Below are positions 8,136 through 32,466 of a stretch of 32,466 nucleotides of DNA, in pieces. The notes beneath the pieces were generated by a model. It searched no databases and was not told the origin of the DNA. It was given only the letters and a program-made list of their open reading frames with translations. Numbering within the stretch: the stretch's first letter is position 1; each line of letters opens with the position of its first letter. The position numbers were made by a program, and so were the translations under genes. This DNA is from Candidatus Polarisedimenticolaceae bacterium (GTDB lineage Bacteria > Acidobacteriota > Polarisedimenticolia > Polarisedimenticolales > DASRJG01): contig DASVAW010000088.1 in assembly GCA_036376135.1 (NCBI GenBank), positions 1-32,466 on the forward strand. Direction: 5' to 3'.

Positions 8136-9644
8136 CTACACGGTCCCGCGATGCTCCGGCCGCAGCAGGTCGAACACGGTCTTGACCGGAGCGAACGTCT
8201 CGACGGGAACCTCGACGAAGACGGTGTTCCAGAAGGCCATGGCGCCGTTCCACAACCCCGGCCGCTCGAGGGCGAGCAGTTCGCGCCCCCCAAACGACTT
8301 GCGAGCGACGAGCACCGCTCGCGCGTCGACGAAGCGGCGGAGGTCGTAGGGCCGGCCCTCGACGTCGCGGACCGAACAGGCGAGGTCGACCGGGTTGAAG
8401 TGGGTCGAGGCGGCGACGATCGACGCCTGCGAGGGATCGTCGAGATCGACCTCGGCCGTCTCGACGATCTGCAGGGTGACACGGCCGTCCTCCCCGCGTT
8501 GCCAGAAGGGACCGCCGCCGGGCTCGCCCTGGTTGGGCACCACCCCGCAAACGCGCAACGGCCGGTCCAGCAGGTCGAGCAGCCACGCCCGGCGGTCCGC
8601 ACCGGACGGCGCCGCGGCCGCGAACCGCTCCGCCGCGAACGCCTGCGCCTCGTCGAGCGCCCACGCCTCGACCGCCGGGTCGCGCAGCCGCGCGGTGTGG
8701 AGGAACACCTCGCGCTGCAACGCGACGAGGAAGCCGCAGAGGATCCGCTTCCAGCGCACGGTCGGCCCCTTCAACCGGTCCGGGACGACGTTGTCGATGT
8801 TCTTGAGCAGGACGAGGTCCCCTTCGAGCGCGTTCAGGTTCTCGAGCAGCGCGCCGTGACCCGCCGGGCGCAGCAGCACGCGACCGGCGTCGTCGCGGAA
8901 GGGCTCGCCGTCGACGGTCGCGGCGATCGTGTCGGTCGAGGGGCTCTGCACCGAGAAACCGATCTCGAGCCGCACGCCGAGGCCGCGCTCGTATCCGGGG
9001 CGCGCTTCTTCCGCGGCCTCCCGGAAGCGGTCGAGATGTTCGGGCGAGACGGTGAAGTGGACGCGCGCGATCCCGTCCGCGTCGCGGGCGTACGCCGCCG
9101 CCTCGACGAGGTGCTCCTCGAAGGCCAGGCGCGCCCCGCCGGCGTAACGGTGGAACGCGAGCAGCCCCTTGGGGCGGTCGGCGAGGGCGAGCCCGTCGGG
9201 TCCGAGCATCGCGTCGAGGATCTCGAGGCAGTTCCCCGCGCCGTGCAGGATGTCGAGGTCGTACCCCTCGAAGGCGAGCTCCGAGCGCAGCTCCTCCAGG
9301 AAGGGGAAGTCGTGCAGGCGCTCCATCAGGACGCGCGAGTCCTGCACGTCGCACTGGCGGGCGGCGCGCGCGGCCAGAAGCGACGCGAACATGCGCGAGG
9401 CCGCGCCGGAGGCGGGGACCATCTTGAGGCAACGCCCCTGGCGCGCGGCGAGCTCTGCGAGCTGGATCAGCTCCGCGGTCCGCTCCTCCGGAATCCTGAC
9501 GATCCCGTCGCCCACGGTCGCGGGGCGATCCAGGCGCCTCCGGGGGGGCGGGACGCGCAGGAGGTCGAGTTGGCGTCGGGCCTCCTCGACGGAGATCCCG
9601 CGCTCGCGGAGCTGGTCGACGTCCGCAGGGTTGAAGGGCGTCAT
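8136..9644 (-). CDS. DUF4301 family protein
   Basis: This 502-residue protein belongs to DUF4301. The diagnostic segment is KMVPASGAASRMF at about residues 74-86, which resembles the nucleotide-binding loop of sugar nucleotidyltransferases. Other supporting blocks are PKGLLAFHRY, GVRLEIGFSVQSPSTDTIA, LRPAGHGALLENLN, LKNIDNVVPDR and CGVVPNQGEPGGGPFW. I recall this family mainly from Bacteroidota, without an established reaction. Nucleotidyltransferase-like chemistry is an inference from the loop. The start is ATG 9644, which overlaps the stop of the symporter gene as ATGA, implying translational coupling. The frame stays open far upstream, but that part runs antiphase to the symporter and is not coding. 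It is likely cytoplasmic, with no signal peptide. Confidence 0.85.
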   Translation of the reverse strand: MTPFNPADVDQLRERGISVEEARRQLDLLRVPPPRRRLDRPATVGDGIVRIPEERTAELIQLAELAARQGRCLKMVPASGAASRMFASLLAARAARQCDVQDSRVLMERLHDFPFLEELRSELAFEGYDLDILHGAGNCLEILDAMLGPDGLALADRPKGLLAFHRYAGGARLAFEEHLVEAAAYARDADGIARVHFTVSPEHLDRFREAAEEARPGYERGLGVRLEIGFSVQSPSTDTIAATVDGEPFRDDAGRVLLRPAGHGALLENLNALEGDLVLLKNIDNVVPDRLKGPTVRWKRILCGFLVALQREVFLHTARLRDPAVEAWALDEAQAFAAERFAAAAPSGADRRAWLLDLLDRPLRVCGVVPNQGEPGGGPFWQRGEDGRVTLQIVETAEVDLDDPSQASIVAASTHFNPVDLACSVRDVEGRPYDLRRFVDARAVLVARKSFGGRELLALERPGLWNGAMAFWNTVFVEVPVETFAPVKTVFDLLRPEHRGTV

Positions 9645-10903
9645 CGTGGAGGCGCCTCCTCGCCGCGGGACACGACCACCGCCGCCGCGAGGTCGCCCGT
9701 GACGTTGAGCGTGGTGCGGCACATGTCGAGGAACCGGTCGACCCCCAGGATCAACCCGATTCCCTCGGTCGGCACATGGACGAGCTTCAGGATCATCGCG
9801 ATGACCGGGAGCGAGCCGCCGGGGATCCCCGCCGTGCCGATCCCCGCGAGGATGCAGATCGACACGACCAGGGCCTGGTCGCCGAAGGAGAGGTCGACGC
9901 CGTAGAACTGGGCGAGGAACAGGACGGTGACCCCTTCGTACAGCGCCGTCCCGTTCTGGTTCGCCGTCGATCCGATCGTGAGCACGAACCGGGAGACGTG
10001 CGCGGGGAGCTTCAGATTGTCCTGCGCCACGCGAAGGGCGGTCGGGAGGGTCGCGTTGCTCGAGGCGGTCGAGAAGGCGGTGAGCATCGCCTCGTCGATC
10101 CCGCGGTAGAAGGCGATCGGGCTCATGCCTCCCAGCAGCTTCACGCTCAAGGCGTACACGACGAACTGGTGGATCACGAGCGCCAGCAGGACGACCCCGA
10201 CGTAGCGCGCCAGCTGCAGGATCACCTCGGCGCCGAGCGTCGCCGTCATCGAGAACAGCAGCGCCGCGATGCCGATCGGCGCCAGCGCGATCACCATGCC
10301 GATCAGGCGCATGGTGACGTCGTAGAGTCCCTGCACCGCTTCCTCGAAGCGACGGGCCGCGTCGGTGCGCACGACGGCGACCCCGATCCCCATCATCAGG
10401 GAGAAGAACATGACCGCGAGCATGTCCCCCTCCGCCGCCGCCTTGAACGGGTTGGAGGGGACGATCTGGACGAGCAGGTCGATGCCGGTCTTGGGCGCGG
10501 CCGCGGTCGTGAGTCCCGACGCCCGTTGCGACGCGGTCTCCATGAGCCGCGTCCGGGCCTGCTCCGACAGTCCCTCGCCGGGACGCAGGACGTGGACGAG
10601 GAAGATCCCGAGGAGCACCGCGATCGTGGAGACGACGACCGTGTACGCGAGGGTCTTCAGGCCGACGCGGCCGAGATGCCGGAGGTCGCCCAACCCGGCG
10701 ACCCCGAGGATCAGGGCCGAGAAGATCAAGGGAATGACGAGCATGAACAGCAGGCGCAGGAAGATCTGTCCGGCCGGCTGCGCCACGTTGGCGAGGGTCC
10801 ACGCCAACCCCGGGGAGTCCCCCAGGAAGGCGTGCGCCGCGAGCCCCATCGAGACTCCGGCCGCGCCGCCGATCAGCATTCGGGTGTGGAGCGCCACGCG
10901 CAC
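9641..10903 (-). CDS. Dicarboxylate/amino acid:cation symporter (DAACS family)
   Basis: This is a 420-residue transporter of the SLC1 / GltP / DctA type, which imports dicarboxylates or acidic amino acids with sodium ions or protons through the inner membrane. The hallmarks are the serine-rich loop FSTASSNATLPTAL, the TM7 motif NQNGTALYEGV, and the hairpin-2 stretch GIGTAGIPGGSLPVIAMIL. The fold is complete, with the expected eight helices and two re-entrant loops, and the length is typical. The start is GTG 10903, with no convincing ribosome-binding site. Substrate choice cannot be read reliably. The gene overlaps the DUF4301 start by ATGA and follows the DUF4198 gene by 39 bases. Confidence 0.95.
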   Translation of the reverse strand: MRVALHTRMLIGGAAGVSMGLAAHAFLGDSPGLAWTLANVAQPAGQIFLRLLFMLVIPLIFSALILGVAGLGDLRHLGRVGLKTLAYTVVVSTIAVLLGIFLVHVLRPGEGLSEQARTRLMETASQRASGLTTAAAPKTGIDLLVQIVPSNPFKAAAEGDMLAVMFFSLMMGIGVAVVRTDAARRFEEAVQGLYDVTMRLIGMVIALAPIGIAALLFSMTATLGAEVILQLARYVGVVLLALVIHQFVVYALSVKLLGGMSPIAFYRGIDEAMLTAFSTASSNATLPTALRVAQDNLKLPAHVSRFVLTIGSTANQNGTALYEGVTVLFLAQFYGVDLSFGDQALVVSICILAGIGTAGIPGGSLPVIAMILKLVHVPTEGIGLILGVDRFLDMCRTTLNVTGDLAAAVVVSRGEEAPPR

Positions 10904-10942
10904 CCGCGGAGTATGCAGGGCCGGCGCGCGCGATAGAAGGGG

Positions 10943-11716
10943 TTATTCGGCCGGCGACGCCCGGAACGTCAGCGAGGCCCAGAGGCTCTCCCAGTCGGCG
11001 TCGACCCCGTCCGGGGCCGGCACCATGTGCACGGCCGACAGCAGCCACGGGCCTTCGCCGTCGAGCTCGAAGGTCACACGCCCCGCGGCGTCGGTGCGCC
11101 CCCGCGCGGGCCGGTCGCCCGCGCCCTCGCGCCGCGCCAGCACCAGCGCCCCCGAGAGCGGCTTCCCCTCGAACTCGAGGCGCACGGGGAGGGCACGGTC
11201 CGTCCCGAGCGCCGCCGGGTCCTTCTCCGCGATCAGCTCGAGGCGAAGACCCGTCACGCGGTCCGCACCCGTCCCCATCAGCGCCTTCGCGCACCGCGAG
11301 TAGATCTCCCGCCCGTCCACCCGCGTCTGCCCTTTCGCCTCGCGCGCGGCGATCACGTGCTCGAGCCCCTCCTCGCGCAGGTACGCCTCGAACTTCGCCG
11401 GCGCGAGGGTGATCGACAGCGGACGGCTCCGATAGACGGCGACCCAGGGGCCCGGAGCGGAGGGAGTCGCCTCCCCCGCCGGATCGCGCCCCTCCGCACC
11501 GCGGATCGGGACCGCCTTGCCTTGTCCGAGGAGCTCGAACCGGTCGATGCGCGCCTCGCGGCGGGGGACGGGCTCCCCCACCTTGTTCTCCCCCGAGCGC
11601 AGGGAGAACTCCACCCTCCGTCCCGGCTCGGGGCGGAAGGTGGAGGGCTCGATCCAGAAGTCGTGCGCCGCCACCGGCGAGGCGCTCAGGAGCAGGAGGG
11701 CGAGGATGCGATGCAT
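10943..11716 (-). CDS. DUF4198 domain exported protein
   Basis: This 257-residue exported protein has a clear signal peptide, MHRILALLLLSASPVAA, predicted to leave a mature N-terminus of HDFWIEPSTFRP. That segment is the hallmark of DUF4198, a family related to the periplasmic parts of cobalt/nickel uptake systems. A beta-rich body follows, with a C-terminal Ig-like region (RGRTDAAGRVTFELDGEGPW). The mature first residue would be histidine, a possible metal ligand, which is an inference. The start is ATG 11716 behind GGAGG. The gene sits 21 bases after the giant transglutaminase-like gene and before the symporter. No ABC or ECF transporter components are nearby, so metal transport is not supported by context. 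Confidence 0.85.
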   Translation of the reverse strand: MHRILALLLLSASPVAAHDFWIEPSTFRPEPGRRVEFSLRSGENKVGEPVPRREARIDRFELLGQGKAVPIRGAEGRDPAGEATPSAPGPWVAVYRSRPLSITLAPAKFEAYLREEGLEHVIAAREAKGQTRVDGREIYSRCAKALMGTGADRVTGLRLELIAEKDPAALGTDRALPVRLEFEGKPLSGALVLARREGAGDRPARGRTDAAGRVTFELDGEGPWLLSAVHMVPAPDGVDADWESLWASLTFRASPAE

Positions 11717-11737
11717 GGAAGGCCTCCGACGGAAAAG

Positions 11738-14700
11738 TTACGGCTTCATCAGCGCGGCCCGCCGTCGCTGCGCGAGCGCCCACGACGATGTGTTGAGCCA
11801 TGGATCGTCGGCGGGCTTTTGCACCTTCTCATAAGCCGCGGCGGCCTCGGCCCGCTCCCCGACCGCCTCCGCGATACGGCCGACGACGTACCAGTTGGCC
11901 CCGGGCTCGGCTTCGGGCTCCACGTGGCGCGCCACCACCTTACGCAACGCCTCCACCGCCTCGGGGATCTCGCCGCGTTCCGCGGAGATCACGGCCAGCG
12001 TGTGCAGGGCGTTGTCGACGGCGCCTCCCGGCGCCTGCAACGTGCGCCGGACCCAGCCGAGCGTCTCGTCGTCCGAAAGGCCACGCGCCATCCGGGCCCA
12101 GGCGAGGTTGTTGAAGTCGCGCGGCTCCGCGTTCGGGAGGCGCGCGAGAGTCTCGAGCCTCGCGAACGCCTCCTCCGGCTTCCCTTCGTGCAGGCTCGTC
12201 CAGTAGAGGGCGCGCAGCGCATCGACGTCGTTCGGCCGCTCCCGCAGCCGACGCTCACAGACCTCGCGGCAGCGGTCGGCTCCACCGACGAACTGGAGCG
12301 CGACGGTGTACTCGGAGAAGGCCCAGTCGGACGCCGGGTACCGCTCGTAGACGCGCGCGGCGACCGGCGCCACCTCGGCCCAACGATCGAGCGTCTTGAA
12401 CGCGACGACGAGCGCCATGTCGACGCTCGTGGCGTCGACCTCGTCCTCCCCGATGGCGGGACGCGCCGCCGCAAGCACGTCGACGGCGCTCGCGGCGAAT
12501 CGTCGGTCCCATGCGCCGAGCGCCGCGGCCGCCAGCCGCATCCGCCCCGGCTCGCGCGGCGCGCCGCGCGACCATAGCCTGACGAACGAGACGTCCCGGA
12601 GCGGATCGTCGCCGCCGCGAGGAACCAGCGACTCGCGCGCCCAGTCGAGCCAGCGCCCCGCGCCCTCGAGGTCCCCCGCGTCGATGCGCCGCACGACCTC
12701 CGGGAACATCAGGGACTCGGCGCGCGTGGTCGCCGCGATCCGCGGCCCGTCGGACGTGGAGGTGAGGTACGCGGTCATCCGGACCTCGCTCCCGTCCGTG
12801 GGCGCGCGCATCCGCACTCTCCAGCCCCCTGCGGCGTCGCCGTCCGTAGCGAACTCCACCATGGCCGATGCGACGTCGCCCACCGCGAGCTTCGGGAGGC
12901 CGCCGCGCCGAACCGCACGCAGCGCGGCATCGAGCGAGCGTCGGATCCCCTGAAGCGGAGTGTCGTCGGAGTACGCCGCTCGGACCGCGGGCGAGAACCA
13001 GCGCAGTACGGATTGAAGGTCCGGGTCCTCGGTCGCGAGGTGGAAGACGAACCGCCGGGCCACGCCTTCGGGAGTGGAGACGTCGATGGCCTCGGGATCG
13101 ACCGGTGCGACGCTCCGTAGCGCGTCCGAATGCACGCGCCCGCGGTCGGCTGCGGGAGCACCCGCCTCGAGTAGTCGTGAGGCCTCGGGGTAGCGCCGGA
13201 TCGTGAGCAGGAGCGACCCCGCCGTCTGCAGGGCCTTCCGTCGCGCCTCGGGAGCCTCGGCGATCGCGGGGGCCTGCTCGATCGCGCGTTCCGGTCCGTG
13301 AAGGACGGCCGTCACGGCCAGGAGCCACGCGCTCCGGGTGTCGGAAGGCTCCATCGCCCGGGCGAGCGCAACGGCCTCCGGCATTCGCCCCGCACGCGCC
13401 AACACGAACAGCTGCAGGCCGTCGGTGGTCCCGGCGCCGAGACGCTCGTTCAGGCGCCGGTATTCGGCGAGCGCGGCGTCGAAGTCGGCGCCCGGGCCGT
13501 ACCGCTCCCCGTGTCGATCGTGCTCGAGGAGCTTCGCGAGGGCGAGCCCGACCTCGCCGTCGTCGGGGGCAAGCTCGACGGCGCGACGGTACGCCGCGAC
13601 CGCGGCGTCCCGGTCCCATCCCTCGCCGAACGGCCGACCGAGGGCGTCGTGCTGCAGGGCCCGGCCGAGCGCAGCGTGGGCGCGCGCCGACGCCGGCTCG
13701 ACGCGCACCGCCTCCCGGGCCTCGCGGATCGCCGCGGTCCCGAGGCCCGCGGCCAGCAGCCCTCGGGAGAGGCGCTCGTGCGGCAAGGCGCGATCCGGAC
13801 GCGCGCGGGCCTCGTCCCGGAATGCCGCCATCGCCTCCGGGATCTTCCCGGACCCGAGCAGCGTCTCCCCCGGGTGCTCGAAACCGAGCACGACGGCCGC
13901 GTCGGGACGACTCGCCCGGAAGGCCTCGCGCGCCGCGTTCACCTCGTCCGCGGTCCACCGCACGCGCGAGACGTCGAGACGGAAATCGACGTCGATCGCC
14001 CCGTCGGGACGCGCCGCGAAGGTCCGCTCGAGGACGGCGGGGCCGAGCGCGGTCGTGCCCCCTTCCGGGAGGGGACGCGCGACGAATCCCGCCGGGGGGA
14101 TCACGCGCCATCGCGCGCGGCCCGACCAGGCGTGCGGAAGCTCGAGGTCGGAACGTCGAGGCGTCGTCTCGTCCACCCCGACCTCGAATCGGAGCATGCC
14201 GAACATCTCCGAGGGATCGAGCTCGACCCGGGCGTCGTCGAGGAGGGTCGTCGCCACGCCGGCCCCCGACGCCGCGACGGTCCGTTCGAAGGCGACGGAG
14301 AGATCCTCGGGATCCGTGGATTCCACGCGGTCGAGGGTCCCGGCGCGGTACTCGCGTCTCATGTAGTCCGCGAGGACCCGCTTGCGATCGTCCTCGCCGC
14401 CCCCGGACACCTCGTCGCGAAACACCTCCTCGAACGCCCCGCGCGGCCGCAGGGTCTCGACGACGGATCCGGCGCCGAGGTCCGCCAACCGGATCTCCCG
14501 GATCCATTCGAGCGTGTTGACCGCCGCATCCGCGGTCGGGGTCGTCTCGAGGCCCGTCGTGTCCGGCGACGCGACGAGCACGCGCCGACCCTGGGAGAGC
14601 ACGGGGAGCTCCCCGATCCGCGCGTGGTCGGCGGTCGCGTCGATCCACAGCGGCGGCGTCCCTCCGACGCGGACCACCACGTGGTCGAACTCGCCCAGCC

Positions 14701-30307: not shown

Positions 30308-30963
30308 TGCCCCGCTTCGATCTCGTCGCCTTCGACGTCGACGGCACGCTCGTCGAGCACCCCGAGGAGAAGACGGTCTGGGAGGTGCTCAACGCGCGCT
30401 TCCTGGGCGCCGACGACCTCAACCGCGAGCGGTACGCCGCCTACAAGGCGGGGCGCCTCTCGTACGCCGAGTGGGTGACGCTCGACGTCGGCGGCTGGCG
30501 TGACGCGGGGGCGACGCGGGGCTCGATGCTCGAGTCGCTCGGACCGTTGCGGCTCGTCGACGGCGCGCGGGAGTCCCTCGACGCGCTCAAGCGCGAGGGG
30601 GTGCGCCTCGCCGTGATCTCGGGAACGCTCGACTTCCTTCTCGACGCGTTGTTCCCCGACCACCCCTTCGACGAGGTCTACTGCAACCGCGTGGTCTTCG
30701 ACGACGCGGGGCGGATCGACCACTGGCATGCGACTCCGTTCGACATGGGCGGCAAGGCCGTCGCGCTCAGGGCGATCGCCTCCCGCGAGGGGATCCCGCT
30801 CGCCCGCTGCGCGTTCGTGGGAGACCACGCGAACGACCTCGACGCCGCGCGCCTCGCGGGGTTCGCGATCGCCTTCAATCCCAAGGACGCGCAGCTCGAG
30901 GCGGCGGCGGGTGCGGTCGTGCGGTCGCGCGACCTGAGGGACGTCCTCCCCTACCTGCTCTGA
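30307..30963 (+). CDS. HAD-superfamily phosphatase (SerB-like)
   Basis: This is a 218-residue haloacid dehalogenase-type hydrolase. Motif I is DVDGT with Asp10 and Asp12 (VAFDVDGTLVE), motif II is VISGTLDFLL, motif III lysine is in MGGKAVALR, and motif IV is FVGDHANDLDAARLAG. A helical cap with KAGRLSYAEWV and PLRLVDGARESLDAL suggests the phosphoserine-phosphatase-like subclass. The substrate is unknown. The ATG at 30307 shares one base with the previous stop (TGATG), so coupling with the oxidoreductase is likely. The 3' end overlaps the Nudix gene by 13 bases. Confidence 0.92.
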   Translation: MPRFDLVAFDVDGTLVEHPEEKTVWEVLNARFLGADDLNRERYAAYKAGRLSYAEWVTLDVGGWRDAGATRGSMLESLGPLRLVDGARESLDALKREGVRLAVISGTLDFLLDALFPDHPFDEVYCNRVVFDDAGRIDHWHATPFDMGGKAVALRAIASREGIPLARCAFVGDHANDLDAARLAGFAIAFNPKDAQLEAAAGAVVRSRDLRDVLPYLL

Positions 30964-31490
30964 CGTCGGCGCGCCGCCGCACGCAGCAACGCCAGCGCGG
31001 ACTTCGCGTCGACGAGGTCTCCGCGCTCGGCCATGGCGACGGCTTCGTCGAACGGCACCCGTTCGACGGCGAGCACCTCGTCGGGCTGCAGTTCCTGGCG
31101 CGTCCGAACGAGGTCGGTCGCGAGGTACAGCCAGATCCTCTCGTCGGTGAACCCCGGGGTCGTCCACAACCAGCCGAGTGGCTCCAGCCGGCCGGGCCGC
31201 AGTCCGGTCTCCTCCTCCACCTCCCGCAAAGCGCAGGACTCGGGGGACTCGCCGGGGTCGAGTTTTCCTGCGGGGACCTCGAGCAGCCAGCCCCCCGTGG
31301 CGTATCGGTACTGCCGGACGAGGTGGACCGAGCCGTCGGCATCGAGGGGCACGATCGCCGCGGCGCCCGGGTGCCGGATGATCTCGAGGGTGCAGACGTT
31401 GCCGTTGGGGAGTCGGACCTCGTCGGCGGAGAGCCGAACGATGCGCCCGGCGTGAAGAAGGCGGGACGAAAGGACCGCTGGGCCGGACAT
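30951..31490 (-). CDS. Nudix hydrolase (ADP-ribose pyrophosphatase-like)
   Basis: This 179-residue Nudix enzyme probably cleaves ADP-ribose or a related nucleotide sugar. The Nudix box starts at Gly75 and runs GKLDPGESPESCALREVEEE (residues 75-94) followed by TGL. Upstream VRQYRYATGGWLLEVPAG and downstream TPGFTDERIWLYLA are typical of the ADPRase group. The start is ATG 31490 behind GAGG with 8-base spacing; the longer frame to 31628 would run through the small peptide gene in antiphase. It lies 34 bases after that peptide gene on the same strand and may share its transcript. The enzyme itself looks ordinary and cytoplasmic. Confidence 0.92.
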   Translation of the reverse strand: MSGPAVLSSRLLHAGRIVRLSADEVRLPNGNVCTLEIIRHPGAAAIVPLDADGSVHLVRQYRYATGGWLLEVPAGKLDPGESPESCALREVEEETGLRPGRLEPLGWLWTTPGFTDERIWLYLATDLVRTRQELQPDEVLAVERVPFDEAVAMAERGDLVDAKSALALLRAAARRRQSR

Positions 31491-31524
31491 CAGGAACCTC
31501 CGGCCGGATCCTACTCCGACGCGC

Positions 31525-31719
31525 TCAACGGCGGCCGCGACCCCGCCCCCGACCCCTGTTGCGCCCGCGCTCCGGATTCGACACGACGAACCCACTGGCC
31601 CCGCTCGCCTGGGCCGGCCCCATCGCATCCACGACCGATTGAATCGTCATGGTCTTGATATGAGGCTTGACGTAGACGTCCTTATGCTTCGAATTAGTTG
31701 CATTGTCATTGATCTTCAT
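31525..31719 (-). CDS. Small peptide gene, candidate RiPP precursor (64 aa)
   Basis: This 64-residue peptide starts at ATG 31719 behind GAGG with 8-base spacing. Residues 1-15 are polar (MKINDNATNSKHKDV). Residues 16-21 read YVKPHI, matching the YxxPx(L/I) element found in leader peptides bound by RiPP recognition elements such as those of lasso peptides. Then come KTMTIQSVVDAM, a GPAQASGASG segment (34-43), FVVSNPE, and an Arg-Gly tail (51-64). No cysteine is present. Codons are AT-rich in the first half (AAT, ACT, CAT, ATT) and GC-rich in the last third. The YxxPxI, small-residue GPAQASG segment and short length suggest a leader plus core. No PqqD-like, radical SAM, LanM/B or protease gene is visible. 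It could also be a small regulatory or nucleic-acid-binding protein. Confidence 0.68.
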   Translation of the reverse strand: MKINDNATNSKHKDVYVKPHIKTMTIQSVVDAMGPAQASGASGFVVSNPERGRNRGRGRGRGRR

Positions 31720-31734
31720 GCGAGTGACCTCAAG

Positions 31735-31757
31735 GCACACTTACATGTTTCGTGTGC
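31735..31757 (-). promoter_or_regulatory. 5'-leader hairpin of the small peptide gene
   Basis: GCACAC (31735-31740) and GTGTGC (31752-31757) are perfect reverse complements around an 11-base loop. On the minus strand the hairpin would sit at the expected 5' end of the transcript (start about 31757) and just upstream of the ribosome-binding site. It might protect the mRNA end or influence translation. Confidence 0.4.
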
Positions 31758-31763
31758 GGCCTG

Positions 31764-31807
31764 TTTGTACGTCCACTTCGACTTGATGTGAAGTGAAAAA
31801 TGAAGTG
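31764..31807 (-). promoter_or_regulatory. Promoter of the small peptide gene with overlapping repeats
   Basis: On the minus strand TTCACA (31792-31787) and TACAAA (31769-31764) are separated by 17 bases and match the -35 and -10 consensus with one and two mismatches. This predicts transcription from about 31757. An inverted repeat CACTTC (31774-31779) / GAAGTG (31790-31795) spans the spacer and -35 box, and a second TGAAGTG lies at 31801-31807, 12 bases from the first at 31789-31795. These repeats could be an operator. The binding protein is unknown. Confidence 0.45.
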
Positions 31808-31828
31808 CATGCATGAACAATGACCGCG

Positions 31829-31888
31829 TTGATACATATGCGTACAACTTGATATGAACAGTTACGAACAAATCGCCCCGAAATCGGG
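31829..31888 (+). promoter_or_regulatory. Promoter and palindrome upstream of the cysteine desulfurase gene
   Basis: On the plus strand TTGATA (31829-31834) and TATGAA (31853-31858) are separated by 18 bases, one and two mismatches from consensus, predicting a start near 31866. The near-palindrome CCCGAAATCGGG (31877-31888, 10 of 12 positions symmetric) follows in the leader, 15 bases before the GTG. It could be an operator or a small hairpin. ACTTGATATGAA (31847-31858) repeats ACTTGATGTGAA (31781-31792) with one mismatch, 66 bases apart. Confidence 0.4.
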
Positions 31889-31903
31889 TCAAACTGCGAG
31901 TCG

Positions 31904-32466
31904 GTGATCTACCTCGACCACAACGCCACCACACCGGTCGCGGCGGAGGTCGTCCAGGCGATCGTGGACGCGTTGACCGGTGCGTGGGGAAACCCCTCCT
32001 CGGGGCACGACGCGGGGCGCCGCGCCCGAGCCGTCGTCGAGCGGGCGCGGGAGGAGGTGGCCTCCCTCCTCTGCAGCGCCGCCGACTCCATCGTCTTCAC
32101 CGGAGGCGGAACGGAGGCCGATCACCTCGCGGTGCTCGGCGTCGCCGAGGCGCTCGAGGCGAAGGGGCGCCACATCGTCTCGTCCGCGATCGAGCACCCC
32201 GCGATCGTCGCGCCGCTCGCCCGACTCGAGCGACGGGGGTGGACGGTGAGCCGCGTCGCCCCGGCGCCCGACGGGGCCGTGCGCGCCGAGGACGTGATCG
32301 CCGCCTTCCGCGACGACACGACGCTCGTCACGGTGATGCACGCGAACAACGAGACCGGCGCGATCCAGCCCGTCGCCGCGATCGCGCGGGCGGCGCGCGC
32401 GCGGGGAATCGTCGTCCACACCGACGCCGCGCAGTCCGTCGGCAAGGTTCCGCTCGACGTGGACGA
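31904..32466 (+). CDS. Cysteine desulfurase, NifS/IscS type (3' partial)
   Basis: This is the first 187 codons of a pyridoxal-phosphate cysteine desulfurase, cut by the window end. It removes sulfur from cysteine for iron-sulfur clusters, tRNA thiolation or other thio-cofactors. Features are VIYLDHNATTPV at the N-terminus, GNPSSGHDAGRRAR, FTGGGTEADHLAV, His98 (SAIEHPA), HANNETGAIQPV with Asn149, and HTDAAQSVGKVPLD with Asp174 and Gln177, which contact the cofactor in IscS. The catalytic lysine and the active-site cysteine lie beyond the edge. The start is GTG 31904; an upstream ATG is absent and the ribosome-binding site is weak. It is divergent from the small peptide gene across a 184-base, AT-richer region. 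Confidence 0.95.
   Translation, partial: MIYLDHNATTPVAAEVVQAIVDALTGAWGNPSSGHDAGRRARAVVERAREEVASLLCSAADSIVFTGGGTEADHLAVLGVAEALEAKGRHIVSSAIEHPAIVAPLARLERRGWTVSRVAPAPDGAVRAEDVIAAFRDDTTLVTVMHANNETGAIQPVAAIARAARARGIVVHTDAAQSVGKVPLDVD

Follow-up and report, generated by a model that had tools for sequence, protein, structure and literature searches.

A 64-codon frame lying in a markedly AT-rich gap between two conserved genes raises two questions, namely whether it encodes the precursor of a RiPP-type peptide and, if so, which enzymes would act on the product. The window analyzed here is the whole stretch of 32,466 bases, which is an entire contig (C88) from a 4.38-Mb draft genome in 179 contigs that is 97.6% complete. 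The features on which the argument turns are as follows.

31525..31719, minus strand: RiPP-type precursor gene, 64 residues, stop codon at 31525-31527 and ATG at 31717-31719; from the open reading frame and a family profile match
31727..31731 (approximate), minus strand: Shine-Dalgarno (SD) GAGGT; from the sequence
31657..31674, minus strand: YVKPHI, a YxxPx[IVL] motif of the RRE-binding type; Y kept in 23/24 and P in 24/24 aligned members
31609..31620, minus strand: GPAQ family signature, residues 34-37, putative leader-core border; G and P invariant and A nearly so in 24 members
31528..31608, minus strand: putative core ASGASGFVVSNPERGRNRGRGRGRGRR, residues 38-64, Ser-Gly then Arg-Gly rich; from the sequence, variable across the family
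31491..31903, no strand: islet, the NUDIX-nifS gap of 414 nt, holding the gene and its AT-rich upstream DNA
30951..31490, minus strand: NUDIX hydrolase flank, not part of the system; Nudix box in the sequence and homologues, syntenic in relatives
31904..32466, plus strand: class-V aminotransferase / cysteine desulfurase (nifS) flank, not part of the system; PF00266, E 6e-45, truncated by the contig end

The gene and its family

The frame at 31525-31719 on the minus strand is a real gene. The proper start and ribosome-binding site claimed in the original prediction are present as an ATG with GAGG 8 nt upstream, the YxxPxI motif claimed for residues 16-21 is YVKPHI, and MTIQSVVDAM and GPAQASG occupy residues 24-33 and 34-40 as stated. 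The 64-residue peptide contains no Cys and no Thr near the GPAQ/ASGASG junction, both as claimed, and the Thr found at the penultimate leader position of lasso peptides is absent. As read from the sequence, GPAQ is a plausible leader-core border because conservation drops after it, and cleavage would then follow GPAQ. Scans for sigma-70 promoters and terminators detected nothing. The sequence CTTGATRTGA occurs three times in or upstream of the gene (31654-31663, 31782-31791 and 31848-31857) and may represent an operator or chance. Elsewhere in the window, a long frame on the minus strand (8139-11801) carries a strong DUF4301 domain (PF14134, E 8e-173).

There is good support for placing the window ORF in a hitherto undescribed family of small peptides that spans several phyla. 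We refer to it as the YxxP-GPAQ family; its consensus is Y-x-x-P-x-[IVM]-x12-G-P-A-[QSMH], with an ungapped Y-to-GPA spacing in aligned members. At the level of BLAST, the same genome holds a paralogue (on contig C50, 40% identity) and class relatives give weak matches. A five-sequence profile matches in 24/41 genomes of the class, the best previously unseen match having an E of about 1e-11; after subtraction of unconvincing short-ORF matches and addition of one homologue found with a wider profile, homologues stand at 22/41 genomes of class Polarisedimenticolia (Acidobacteriota). They extend, with those of several other phyla described below, beyond near-identical strains. No Pfam or NCBIfam model was found for the window protein, NCBIfam likewise has none for the seven members from the class and the eight from other phyla that were scanned, and searches of open-licence papers for GPAQ or GPAQAC leaders returned nothing.

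These comparisons bear directly on whether the frame is merely a chance ORF in an AT-rich spacer, for which one could cite a short, compositionally odd spacer and the absence of the frame from the same spot in six relatives. With the profile rebuilt without the window's genome to avoid circularity, however, 28.8 bits (E 1.1e-8) are obtained for the window ORF and 2.7 bits for the next best of 391 window ORFs, while 20,000 shuffles of the former reach at most 10.3-10.4 bits. Together with the second copy in the same genome and the good SD and ATG, this contradicts a chance origin, which is hardly credible. A profile built from other phyla only likewise ranks the window ORF first among window ORFs (E 6e-5).

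All 25 homologues inspected begin with ATG, and a purine-rich, SD-like stretch lies just upstream in nearly all of them. Across the family, a conserved N-terminal leader with the recognition motif is joined to a variable C-terminal core that is also constrained between close relatives. Three close homologue pairs, the window copy itself not being among them, give a dN of 0.15-0.22 and a dS of 0.67-1.10, and the resulting dN/dS of about 0.19-0.25 indicates purifying selection on the peptides, including their tails; loss of the frame in relatives, which would have spoken against the original prediction, is not what these pairs record at a dN/dS of about 0.2.

A fixed-spacing DNA pattern, for which zero matches are expected in the shuffled window, picks out 36 contigs among 84,980 species genomes. 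The matches outside the class are short ORFs, for example YEPPKIQTYTSEEILEAIGPAQACSPSPCPVGN in Desulfobacteraceae, with similar short ORFs in Chloroflexi, Myxococcota, Aminicenantes, Verrucomicrobia and unnamed bacteria. Two pattern matches look spurious, one in a Frankia contig that is not a clear short ORF (L127) and one in a 247-aa frame (L142).

Several peptides of related appearance were recorded alongside. Unnamed RiPP-type precursors with YxPPKIxTYxxEEILExxGPAQACSPxPCPV and variants occur at L121, L123, L124, L128-L134, L138, L139, L145, L146, L148, L149 and L153; precursors of this YxPPKIxTYxxEEILExxGPAQAC type are found in several phyla, often in multiple copies per genome and often beside RREs and/or PqqD-fused radical-SAM/SPASM enzymes. 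Other PqqD loci of the class (L078, L082, L085) have a different precursor type, KKTYEKPAIIHTEKLEARAV-C, which is a separate candidate RiPP family. At L278 (8077-8283, minus strand), a short YQSPTVRTYTDDRL peptide that has lost GPAQ is divergent from an HprK-related kinase gene and is possibly a further, diverged precursor.

The AT-rich islet

The gene sits in the most AT-rich stretch of the window. The earlier hand count of 106 G+C in the 240 positions of 31621-31860 is exact (44.2%), and 240-nt stretches across the window have a mean G+C of 72.1% (sd 4.1), the lowest outside the islet region being 57.5%. The leader codons are 48.6% G+C vs 77.8% for the rest of the ORF, a pattern shared by all 26 family members tested, in which leader G+C is below tail G+C; low leader G+C at least in part reflects the amino-acid make-up of family members. 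The AT-rich upstream DNA, by contrast with the locus (47.5% G+C over the 200 nt upstream of the gene vs 72%), is particular to the window gene, and a search of the same genome for a second copy of the islet DNA found none. Because the gap measures 414 nt here vs 57-135 nt in six relatives, and because no second islet copy was found, the window copy is most likely a gain of its own lineage at the NUDIX-nifS site. The islet had been tentatively attributed to transfer or to selection on DNA structure; a lineage-specific gain is the better reading, and nothing was found in support of the structural one.

Candidate partner enzymes of the homologues and of the host genome

The neighborhoods of the homologues point to two kinds of machinery. 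In ten genomes of family f5, a discrete PqqD/RRE gene is the immediate same-strand neighbor of the homologue (two of these RRE genes, scanned in Pfam, match PF05402 with E 1e-11 to 1e-13), and the precursor-RRE pair is divergent from an exopolysaccharide (EPS) export operon with Poly_export, SLBB, Wzz and AAA genes. All three components are adjacent at two loci, in the order precursor, HprK-related kinase, RRE in one (G031:C191, L063) and precursor, RRE, kinase in the other (G024, L282), where the RRE lies above the TIGR04353 cut-off for the PqqD of the HPr-rel-A system (40.1 vs 35 bits). In the window's order, the RRE gene follows genes for a sugar transferase (PF02397) and an HprK-related kinase at the EPS locus, with the precursor elsewhere; most order homologues stand alone among housekeeping genes, and in six order relatives the precursor lies among CitMHS, CLC, LOG and lytic transglycosylase genes. 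In other phyla, the genes next to many homologues encode PqqD-like RREs and/or radical-SAM/SPASM proteins whose N-terminal part is PqqD-like (L121, L124, L130, L132, L139, L145, L146, L148, L149). Neither a peptidase nor an exporter was seen beside the loci read, and neither a B2 (Transglut_core3) peptidase nor an asparagine-synthetase-like cyclase was present among the homologue and window neighbors scanned.

Conserved modification genes, anticipated by the original prediction, are accordingly found beside homologues, as RRE, HprK-like kinase and radical-SAM/SPASM genes, and not beside the window gene, which is flanked by the NUDIX and cysteine desulfurase genes and for which no modification or recognition domain was detected in the window ORFs scanned. 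Neighbors of the f11 precursors were RRE candidates by size, but were set aside because they match no family. Downstream of f5 precursors (L054-L065), the RRE-precursor pair lies just before frames resembling tRNA genes read in antisense (VAQLDRA..GSGGSGFESL) and tadA/dnaX/recR, and the site is a recurrent insertion spot beside the EPS operon.

The solitary position of most order homologues, the placement of RRE and kinase at an EPS locus, a core that varies less than is usual among near relatives and, in f5, a constant RLFPGLR-like C-terminus would all suit a small regulatory or structural peptide of the EPS or envelope machinery, whose YxxP-GPAQ region binds a PqqD-like adaptor and which is left unmodified. 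Such a non-RiPP role is nevertheless quite improbable, as linkage to RRE plus kinase or to radical-SAM enzymes normally signals peptide modification when it is seen in unrelated lineages. We consider a RiPP-type precursor ancestry highly probable, and the central claim of the original prediction, a precursor with an RRE-binding leader outside the named classes, is supported by the cross-phylum homologues, the purifying selection and the RRE, kinase and radical-SAM neighbors of homologues.

Two members of the family are encoded in the window's genome, as is a single kinase of the HprK-related type. The second family gene (G000:C50:27485-27650; L050 9985-10152) lies between CitMHS and CLC genes and keeps its motif and place, six order relatives having orthologues close to the same housekeeping genes; that syntenic cluster (CitMHS, CLC, LOG, lytic transglycosylase, CinA) was considered as a biosynthetic cluster and set aside as housekeeping, and the radical SAM gene found some 12 kb away from this paralogue is MoaA. 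The kinase gene is intact on contig C59 beside Poly_export and Wzz genes for EPS export, encodes the P-loop GPSGFGKTTL, and lies at a locus with tadA, dnaX, ybaB and recR ordered as in relatives (tadA, ybaB and recR being named from sequence and from homology to scanned ORFs of relatives). This kinase matches TIGR04352 over the P-loop region only (56 bits vs the cut-off of 200) and is more distant than the f3 kinases of the order (149 vs about 400-580 bits). No PqqD/RRE was found at the family cut-off in this 97.6%-complete genome, the best match to the class RRE profile having E 0.63, and at the EPS locus a response-regulator gene adjoins the kinase in the place where an RRE would be. Two PqqD candidates in the genome (L013, L014) are weak, L013 being by sequence a MarR/DtxR-type winged-helix protein rather than an RRE.

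Across the class, presence of the precursor and of an HprK-like kinase agrees in 39/41 genomes (21 with both, 18 with neither, and one each with a single partner; Fisher p 1.7e-9, and p 0.003 when the kinase is permuted within families). The kinase was counted as present above about 85 bits, a threshold picked after viewing the list; the precursor call in G004 is weak (E 0.003) and that in G024 rests on the wider profile. The informative contrasts fall in f1, f3, f5 and f12, and in f1 the window's genome has both partners and G001 neither. Co-occurrence is partly phylogenetic, related genomes not being independent.

A radical-SAM/SPASM enzyme could take the place of the kinase, with the window peptide being modified as its relatives may be in Chloroflexi, Desulfobacteraceae and Myxococcota. 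GPAQA(C) homologues of other phyla do lie beside such enzymes with an N-terminal PqqD-like part, and their leader motif is the same, as the match of the other-phyla profile to the window ORF attests (E 6e-5). However, a search of the window's genome for a radical-SAM/SPASM maturase gave no match at E up to 1e-30 (the best being MoaA and the others weak), radical-SAM presence is unrelated to the precursor in the 41 class genomes (10/22 vs 9/19, p 1.0), and the window peptide has no Cys. We regard this route as quite unlikely in this organism.

Decay is the more serious rival to kinase-dependent maturation. A once functional precursor that lost its RRE and persists unprocessed in this lineage would be consistent with a genome that has no RRE, with the lack of a nearby modification gene, with the absence of any close relative of the window copy (best 40% identity) and with the simple Arg-Gly tail. 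Against it, the leader motif, start and SD are intact, the C50 copy keeps its motif and place, and the kinase at the EPS locus is itself intact, all of which make decay rather unlikely. Present kinase-dependent maturation in this organism is slightly favored, and the missing RRE is the main gap in that reading. Possible explanations are direct binding of the leader by the kinase, an adaptor that escaped recognition, an incomplete assembly, or decay of the system.

Relation to known systems and a proposed mode of action

Discrete RREs bind leaders of the type [Y/W]xxPx[L/V/I..], and HprK-like kinases of the paeninodin and LPP systems phosphorylate a core Ser (PMC13381572). The linear polyphosphorylated peptides (LPP) of Bacillota share with the family a YxxPx[V/L/I] leader motif, there shown to bind a discrete RRE (PMC13381572), as well as an HprK-like kinase, a neighborhood rich in exopolysaccharide and glycosyltransferase genes, and no cyclase found near. 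In contrast, the LPP consensus is YxxPxVLxHQxIxFETxxS (PMC13381572) and that of the family YxxPx[IV]-x12-GPAQ, and the window peptide YVKPHIKTMTIQSVVDAMGPAQ matches the YxxPx[VLI] part alone. LPP clusters also hold an SpI-type peptidase, an NTP transferase and an exporter together (PMC13381572), none of which was seen beside family loci, and their clustering of kinase and RRE with the precursor is reproduced in L063 and L282, whereas the window's genome has an unlinked kinase and no RRE.

The HPr-rel-A system (NCBIfam TIGR04352 for the kinase, TIGR04353 for PqqD_rel_X) provides the best or near-best models for the RRE and kinase in G024 and in order relatives, but the kinases of family loci are far below the TIGR04352 cut-off (41-57 vs 200 bits); a search of open-licence papers for HPr-rel-A or its substrate found nothing. 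Lasso peptides with a discrete RRE (B1), including paeninodin (NF033524), resemble the family in the YxxP leader and in the PqqD-like RRE of homologue loci, and differ in having a B2 peptidase and an asparagine-synthetase-like cyclase, neither of which was seen beside the homologues examined, and a pre-core Thr, which the window peptide lacks; one family member scores 13 bits against NF033524, where the cut-off is 27. Radical-SAM/SPASM RiPPs (mycofactocin, StsB-type and others) are matched by other-phyla homologues that pair the same leader with an RRE and a radical-SAM/SPASM enzyme, yet none of seven such enzymes scanned reaches an NCBIfam equivalog cut-off, and the window's genome has no such enzyme. 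Since a tested defining feature fails in each case, we do not assign the window peptide to the LPP, lasso or radical-SAM RiPPs. What is new is an unnamed leader family, and what is known are the two kinds of machinery that it joins; by analogy, the peptide may work like RRE-guided RiPPs, most like LPP.

Following that analogy, residues 1-37 would form the leader and residues 38-64 the variable product part. An RRE-type (PqqD) domain would be the docking site of YVKPHI, and partner enzymes would recognize the hydrophobic stretch that follows it and ends in GPAQ. In this class, the most likely partner is the HprK-related (P-loop) kinase encoded at the EPS locus and acting in trans. This kinase would probably phosphorylate a Ser shortly after GPAQ (ASGAS in the window peptide), in the manner of the HprK-like kinases of the paeninodin and LPP systems. 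Ser-Gly lies close behind GPA in 9/12 order members (counted by eye) and is missing after GPAQ from some members with a kinase in the genome, such as G003, which makes the proposal of a Ser acceptor weak. The family and the leader function are well supported; RRE docking, phosphorylation, Ser as acceptor, cleavage after GPAQ, the product and a secretion or EPS role are inferences. Taken as a whole, the reading that we modestly prefer is that the gene encodes an orphan precursor of the RiPP type, was acquired between NUDIX and nifS, and has a product that is probably modified in trans by the EPS-locus kinase.

More broadly, and with some doubt, we propose that HprK-related-kinase / PqqD (HPr-rel-A-like) systems at exopolysaccharide loci of Gram-negative bacteria could have their missing substrates in the YxxP-GPAQ peptides, which would be kinase-modified and tied to capsule or EPS, would share their leader with radical-SAM systems of other phyla, and would include scattered orphan copies matured in trans. 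One short motif provides a handle on an unnamed peptide family in at least six phyla, whose members have a common leader but are paired with either of two distinct modifying systems, a kinase or a radical-SAM enzyme, and which offers a concrete candidate substrate for the HprK-related kinase / PqqD pairs at exopolysaccharide loci. Such precursors sit far from their enzymes, and cluster-based genome mining would miss them.
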